Source of the DNA: an uncultured Pelagibacteraceae bacterium
Lineage (GTDB): Bacteria; Pseudomonadota; Alphaproteobacteria; Pelagibacterales; Pelagibacteraceae
Assembly: GCA_902579115.1 (NCBI GenBank)
Contig: CACHFP010000001.1
Span: forward strand, 124,001-188,000
Length of the DNA stretch: 64,000 nt
Direction of reading: 5' to 3'
Shown: piece after piece, positions 1 through 1,020 of the stretch
Numbering within the stretch: the stretch's first letter is position 1
Layout: the number at the start of each line of letters is the position of its first letter
Notes under the pieces: generated by a model
Database searches by the model: none
What the model saw: the letters and a program-made list of their open reading frames with translations, nothing else
What the model was told of the DNA's origin: nothing
Translations under genes and position numbers: made by a program

Positions 1-295
1 TTCTCCAAATCTTCTCATGACTATAGTTGAAAGGTAATTTAATTAACCTATTGTATTGTTTAGACTTAGCATCATCGCACCAACCCATTTTTTTATTAAT
101 AATCATTTTTTTAAGTTTAGATCGAAGTTTTTTTAATCTATCTTTTCGATAAAGGATTCCTTTTATTTTATAAGTACCTTTTGGAGTAATTAGGTCACCT
201 TCTTTTTTCTTAACATCAATTCCTCTTTTACCAACAGCGCATTTTACTTTATAATGTCTAAAGTAAAGAAATTTATTTTTTACCACAATATGCAT
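1..295 (-). CDS. L,D-transpeptidase (YkuD-like) family protein, truncated by window start
   Basis: Reverse-strand open frame missing from the ORF track because it runs off the edge: MHIVVKNKFLYFRHYKVKCAVGKRGIDVKKKEGDLITPKGTYKIKGILYRKDR...MGWCDDAKSKQYNRLIKLPFNYSHEKIWR. EGDLITPKGTY and MGWCDD..YNRLIKLP..YSHEKIWR resemble this family. Confidence 0.8.
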   Translation of the reverse strand, partial: MHIVVKNKFLYFRHYKVKCAVGKRGIDVKKKEGDLITPKGTYKIKGILYRKDRLKKLRSKLKKMIINKKMGWCDDAKSKQYNRLIKLPFNYSHEKIWR

Positions 296-916
296 AAATT
301 GAACATTTTACTATCCGGTCCCAATAATTTTATTTCAACAATAAACGAACTTAAACAATATTTAAAGTTCAACCTTAAATATAACGATAAAAAATCTTTA
401 GATATATCTTTAATTAATTTTGATGTCTTAATTTTCCATCATGATTCTTATGAAATCTTAAAACAAAAAAACGATTTTAAAAAAATAAAAAATATAAAAA
501 TTTTGATTACCAAAAAAAAATCAAAATTTAGTGATAAATTTGATGCTATAATAACATTACCTACTTCGATTAAAGAAATAAATGAAGTAGTCGAGACTAG
601 TTTTGCAAAAAAACAGTTTAATCTTAATTCATCAATTAAAATAAAAAAATATTTTTTAGATAAAAATGAGAAAAGATTAATTAAAGATAATTTTTATATA
701 ATATTAACTGAAAAAGAAATTAAACTTTTGGAGCTATTTTTAATTAAGAAAAAAGCAATATCTAAAAATGAAATTTTATCGCTCGTCTGGCATTACTCAG
801 AAGATGCAGATACTCACACAGTAGAAACACATATTTATAGGTTAAGAAAAAAAATTCAGGAAAAATTTTTAGATAATAATTTTATTTTGAATAATAAGGA
901 TGGTTATTACTTATGA
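290..916 (+). CDS. OmpR-type winged-helix response regulator with degenerate receiver domain (ORF track start 254; 290 preferred)
   Basis: C-terminal winged helix: LTEKEIKLLELFLIKKKAISKNEILSLVW...DTHTVETHIYRLRKKI...GYYL. N-terminal region receiver-like but divergent. Confidence 0.75.
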   Translation: MHKLNILLSGPNNFISTINELKQYLKFNLKYNDKKSLDISLINFDVLIFHHDSYEILKQKNDFKKIKNIKILITKKKSKFSDKFDAIITLPTSIKEINEVVETSFAKKQFNLNSSIKIKKYFLDKNEKRLIKDNFYIILTEKEIKLLELFLIKKKAISKNEILSLVWHYSEDADTHTVETHIYRLRKKIQEKFLDNNFILNNKDGYYL

Positions 917-1020
917 AGAAGAGGAATAAAATTGCAATCGATCTATTTTCAAAAAAATACCGTAAGCGTATAATTAAGCCTAAAAAAGGAAAAGGAAGTT
1001 TTAAAAGAAAAAAAAGATAG
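913..1020 (+). CDS. arfA: Putative ArfA-like alternative ribosome-rescue factor (35 aa)
   Basis: MKKRNKIAIDLFSKKYRKRIIKPKKGKGSFKRKKR*. Matches the ArfA core pattern LF.....R....KKGKGS(Y/F).RK; ATGA overlap with the upstream gene. Confidence 0.72.
   Translation: MKKRNKIAIDLFSKKYRKRIIKPKKGKGSFKRKKR

Follow-up and report, generated by a model that had tools for sequence, protein, structure and literature searches.

A short ArfA-like gene conserved across a SAR11 genus and overlapping the stop codon of its upstream neighbour

An ArfA-like gene in SAR11

Analysis of a 64,000-nucleotide stretch of DNA (the window), which belongs to a 1.0 Mb draft SAR11 genome, revealed a previously unlisted gene of 35 codons at positions 913-1020 of the forward strand, running from ATG to TAG and translating to MKKRNKIAIDLFSKKYRKRIIKPKKGKGSFKRKKR. 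That this is a genuine, conserved SAR11 gene is strongly supported, as is, from its sequence, the membership of its product in the ArfA family. The peptide very probably rescues ribosomes trapped on damaged messages, and we hold with good confidence that, as a short alphaproteobacterial ArfA, it would act as a backup to tmRNA-SmpB at ribosomes stalled at the 3' ends of broken mRNAs. The initial annotation of this DNA had described the unlisted frame and its ATGA overlap with the preceding gene, both of which are present exactly as reported, and had proposed an ArfA-like factor of a streamlined alphaproteobacterium; this identity is right in its essentials, and the host can be refined to SAR11.

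The genus-wide presence of the gene matters because a 2024 survey of 15,259 genomes found arfA to be restricted to Gammaproteobacteria, some Betaproteobacteria and the Bacillus subtilis group; among its 2,376 genomes of Alphaproteobacteria, it recorded ArfB in 2,022 and no ArfA at all (PMC11633108). SAR11 bacteria are among the most abundant in the ocean, and one genus of them carries this overlooked tiny gene throughout, in a setting where ArfB was not found and with relatives of the gene in many marine phages. As a natural minimal ArfA, the protein raises the question of which residues suffice for opening RF2. It also provides an example of an ArfA that apparently does without a truncation switch, and a system in which phages and hosts may pass the capacity for ribosome rescue to one another.

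Conservation of the reading frame

A single matching ORF was found at E<=0.001 in 62 of the 73 genomes of the genus (the window's own included), with 49 of these matches exceeding the Pfam cut-off. The 11 genomes that yielded no match are also missing an orthologue of the upstream regulator, for which they give just weak, paralogue-level matches. The adjacent PfkB/adenosine-kinase-like gene (1022-1951 on the minus strand of the window, convergent with arfA and considered here for context only) is absent from ten of them and is truncated by a contig end in the eleventh. A true loss of arfA in these genomes is thus unsupported, and the locus is probably unassembled; with the absences read as assembly gaps, arfA is present in the genus wherever its locus was assembled. 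A stop codon is flagged within the matched stretch in four of the 62 matches (G062, G046, G052 and G012), where the profile positions place it mostly at or beyond the tail.

The initial annotation had made its reading depend on conservation of the frame in relatives, and what emerged is strong purifying selection: across 79 loci the uncorrected pN and pS are 0.087 and 0.591, respectively (ratio 0.147), and the variation falls mainly on third codon positions. Read in the two shifted frames, the same loci contain many stops and have ratios of 1.3 and 2.7. When GTDB contigs were searched with the family alignment, 448 candidate relatives emerged, the best 80 of which are SAR11 (labelled Pelagibacteraceae, Pelagibacterales, Candidatus Pelagibacter or SAR11 cluster), and the host ArfA proteins range from 35 to 43 residues in length. 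A short, Lys-rich ORF in an AT-rich genome invites the suspicion of a frame open by chance, its motif a product of Lys-rich low complexity; purifying selection, the conserved start overlap, the genus-wide presence, the behaviour of the shifted frames and the shuffle test described below leave this reading next to no credence, and it was rejected.

Assignment to the ArfA family

The 35-residue protein scores 27.7 bits against the Pfam ArfA family (PF03889), above the curated cut-off of 25.5, and in a sequence search of the PDB all six matches at E<1 were E. coli ArfA chains, aligned without gaps from ORF residues 3-34 to E. coli ArfA residues 12-43. A search of NCBIfam with the protein gave no match. 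When a profile was built solely from the ArfA proteins of other proteobacterial classes, the protein scored 23.7 bits, against a maximum of 11.3 bits among approximately 20,000 shuffled versions of its sequence; the similarity therefore extends beyond low-complexity Lys, a doubt which the initial annotation had itself raised. The ORF is also the top-scoring of all six-frame stretches in the window (E 4e-6, with the runner-up at 0.08).

The bulk of the score comes from the basic tail IIKPKKGKGSFKRKKR (970-1017, forward strand), the counterpart of the ArfA segment found in the empty mRNA channel. In E. coli, this segment of ArfA recruits RF2 and threads into the empty channel. Residues K24-K25-G26-K27-G28-S29, equivalent to E. 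coli K33-S38, are invariant in the alignment, so that the KGKGS segment is exact throughout. With KKGKGS masked, the score with the other-class profile falls to 0.6 bits, so that sequence alone does not firmly establish the homology of the N-terminal half. The 66 distinct host cores keep columns on both sides of this segment: R41 is invariant, as is a Tyr at E. coli position 25, and N14, L20, mostly R26, R28 and [FY]39 are also retained.

E. coli ArfA (YhdL, PF03889) and the SAR11 protein share the KKGKGS[YF]xRK tail, the aromatic residue at position 25, R26 and R28. They differ in size, with some 55-60 active residues in E. coli against 35 in the SAR11 protein, in which nothing corresponds to the first nine residues of E. 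coli ArfA, a stretch belonging to its N-terminal minidomain. Other alphaproteobacterial matches to PF03889 (such as L042, L043 and L045) share an NPxAxxL...[FY]...[KR]KGKxSY-like core with the SAR11 sequences; unlike these, they are sporadic and occur in large genomes beside other neighbours.

RF2-facing residues and the proposed role

In structures of the E. coli complex, Leu19, Leu24 and Phe25 of ArfA contact RF2 at Trp319, Val198 and Phe217 (PMC5378476). All 66 distinct host cores carry Tyr at position 25, where the aromatic residue of ArfA faces RF2 V198/F217/W319, while Asp or Glu stands at the position of Leu19 and Lys at that of Leu24, and Ala18 is not kept; together with the full N-terminal minidomain, these features of the E. 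coli subtype are missing. Since these positions, Leu19 and Leu24 among them, vary also in other alphaproteobacterial and in phage sequences that pass the same Pfam cut-off, the deviation marks a subtype of ArfA rather than failed membership. On the side of the release factor, the RF2 of the window genome keeps V198, F217 and W319 (within SGVHRL, HTSF and GWG), at what we take to be the corresponding positions of E. coli RF2, and its RF1 lacks both HTSF and GWG. SAR11 ArfA probably recruits RF2: the basic tail KPKKGKGSFKRK would enter the empty mRNA channel, the N-terminal half would dock RF2 with Tyr16 in place of E. coli Phe25, and the GGQ loop of the docked RF2 would release the nascent chain.

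Two other roles deserve consideration. The protein could be an ArfT-like factor whose tail binds non-stop ribosomes and whose N-terminus makes a different contact, recruiting RF1 in addition to RF2 or in its place. The length of 35-43 residues resembles that of the 40-residue ArfT of Francisella tularensis, which likewise has a basic C-terminal tail and is apparently free of truncation control, and the loss of Leu19 and Leu24 and the weight of the tail in the family score point the same way. However, ArfT has no hydrophobic residue at the position of F25, and KKGGSTNKK takes the place of KGKGS (PMC6299226), whereas here the Tyr is invariant and KGKGS exact, which makes such a factor improbable. 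Still less probable, in our estimation, is a small basic protein that binds ribosomes or RNA and uses the same channel-binding tail in another role, such as hibernation or the dampening of termination: the N-terminal half has too few residues and has diverged too far for RF2 docking to be proved, but the columns that SAR11 shares with other Alphaproteobacteria, with phages and with Gammaproteobacteria include four outside the tail, namely N14, L/V20, the aromatic residue at 25 and position 28, which is mostly basic. BrfA of Bacillus subtilis, a small RF2-dependent rescue factor (PMC8012679), is set apart by its description, being the product of a truncated mRNA in another phylum and having a distinct N-terminus.

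Ribosome-rescue context

As regards other rescue systems, the initial annotation had pointed to ssrA, smpB and arfB as the genes to look for. Both tmRNA (with the tag ANQKFALAA) and SmpB are present in the genus. A search for RF-1 domains in 91 genomes gave at most two genes per genome; the matches listed lie in release-factor-sized frames, none of them ArfB-sized, and at the weak end of the list two large frames are long open stretches. The 35-residue protein is itself without GGQ and so does not qualify as ArfB, which is recognised by a GGQ-bearing RF-1 domain. To judge from these searches, trans-translation and the ArfA-like protein appear to be the sole rescue factors that we could find.

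The smpB gene of the window genome (G000:C13:11092-11515, L240) is split across two frames near a T homopolymer and is intact in relatives, so that the split is probably a sequencing error; were it real, ArfA would be the sole rescue factor found in this genome. At the tmRNA gene of the same genome (L280, G000:C2:76500-83500), the following 5 kb contain several further copies, in direct orientation, of approximately the last 25 bases, and many relatives have weak tmRNA fragments close to the tmRNA gene. The pattern resembles a variable island at ssrA with nested integration sites.

Start-stop overlap and expression

The gene upstream of arfA (290-916, forward strand) encodes an OmpR-type winged-helix regulator (Trans_reg_C, 55.1 bits) with a degenerate receiver, the Pfam search giving no receiver-domain match, and its earlier description as an atypical response regulator is a fair one. 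A further in-frame ATG lies at 254; 290-916 is the likelier gene because the conserved part in relatives begins at the MH encoded at 290. Its first codon appears to form part of a palindromic ATGCAT (290-295) shared as a start with a divergent, minus-strand L,D-transpeptidase-like gene, an arrangement kept in 59 of 74 loci, in which the promoter of each gene would lie within the coding region of the other.

The regulator ends with the TGA at 914-916, which the arfA start codon overlaps to form the ATGA at 913-916. Of 80 loci, 77 retain such an NTGA overlap, the start codon being ATG, TTG or GTG, and so do 29 of the 30 whole-genome loci, two of the 30 having a CTG start. An ATG followed by a codon with an initial A yields ATGA automatically; the informative point is that a long upstream frame ends exactly at the arfA start both in this genus and in a second SAR11 genus, g6. 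In g6, arfA forms its ATGA with the end of a photolyase-like gene instead. The overlap with the regulator is thus conserved in the genus, but given the other partner in g6, the important feature may be coupling in itself and not this particular regulator. The NTGA overlap is most simply read as termination-reinitiation, which would tie the synthesis of ArfA to that of the preceding gene; a conserved GG at -11/-10 is part of the regulator's GY codons, rather than an evident ribosome-binding site.

E. coli arfA is under hairpin and truncation control, its mRNA being cut or terminated before the stop codon and its expression repressed by tmRNA, whereas the SAR11 gene would be coupled to the gene upstream. 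We found no terminator or stable hairpin in or after arfA, and across 79 loci the 3' region folds no better than shuffled sequences (mean z +0.48, none below -2). As candidates for control at this locus, an RNase III hairpin and a terminator were accordingly both rejected. Since the protein, in addition, ends soon after the motif, the E. coli truncation switch appears to be absent, in agreement with the earlier suggestion that the SAR11 protein would not obviously need such truncation; it would be made as a complete protein and not from a truncated mRNA.

The UGA stop codon is read by RF2 only. On a more tentative reading, which we consider possible and rather doubtful, a SAR11 lineage would have acquired ArfA, plausibly from arfA-bearing marine phages, as a stand-in for ArfB in the backup role, and reinitiation at the UGA would set its dose in place of the tmRNA-controlled truncation of E. 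coli.

Distribution in bacteria and phages

Synteny, which the initial annotation had named as a check, is kept within the genus in the form of the NTGA gene order and differs outside it. In the sister genus g7, arfA is missing from its place and the same convergent kinase comes immediately after the regulator; in g6, arfA lies in the same neighbourhood, between the photolyase-like gene and a transporter gene; and in the other family of the order the regulator precedes a glutamine-synthetase-like gene. The genomes of that family gave no ArfA match, and near the orthologous regulator the best profile score was 8.3 bits. These differing gene orders indicate a gain, relocation or loss of arfA during the history of the order. 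In a wider sample of the class, ArfA matches are sporadic, occurring in 10 of 385 genomes, SAR11 included.

Among viral sequences in IMG/VR, the KGKGS core is common to the best 80 of 168 candidate relatives. All eight viral sequences tested exceed the Pfam ArfA cut-off, the g6 sequence being the ninth in that test set; one member of the viral set, L126 (94% identical), may not be viral. A 66-residue viral relative, used as the query, matched named phage records, namely HTVC027P (Pelagibacter) and phages of Roseobacter, Caulobacter, Brevundimonas and Citromicrobium; several of these matches are weak, and two of the proteins are already annotated as a ribosome-rescue factor. When 35- and 41-residue queries were run against the phage records by tblastn, nothing was returned, probably owing to the low-complexity filter. 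Gp30 of HTVC027P has been named ArfA and assigned to PF03889 (PMC12753301). It is 65% identical to the 66-residue viral relative over 52 residues and shares the core of SAR11 ArfA, from which it differs in being a phage gene that adjoins the terminase small subunit and in its longer N-terminus.

Phages and hosts may plausibly have exchanged arfA. In a tree built on the 29-residue core, the 66 host cores fall together with weak support (0.61), and no direction of transfer is claimed for this reason.

The viral loci offer several further observations. In 21 arfA-bearing viral contigs (among them L129, L130, L134, L135, L138, L139, L146-L149, L152 and L154), the same stretch holds genes for a T4-like clamp loader (gp44-like) and a RegA-like translational repressor, and in the environmental T4-like contigs that were read arfA lies close behind the clamp loader. 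In the cultured pelagimyophages Mosig and HTVC008M, the annotation shows no arfA after the clamp loader and lists other genes in that place. Four viral loci (L150, L184, L190 and L193) carry the ArfA core within a longer basic protein of 138-142 residues, with the common segment TVNKAGNYTKPTMRKRLFE. Finally, in Roseobacter phage CRP-212 (L275) an ArfA-like match at 2501-2587 has no gene of its own and lies inside the annotated end of gp38, a hypothetical gene of 3.6 kb.
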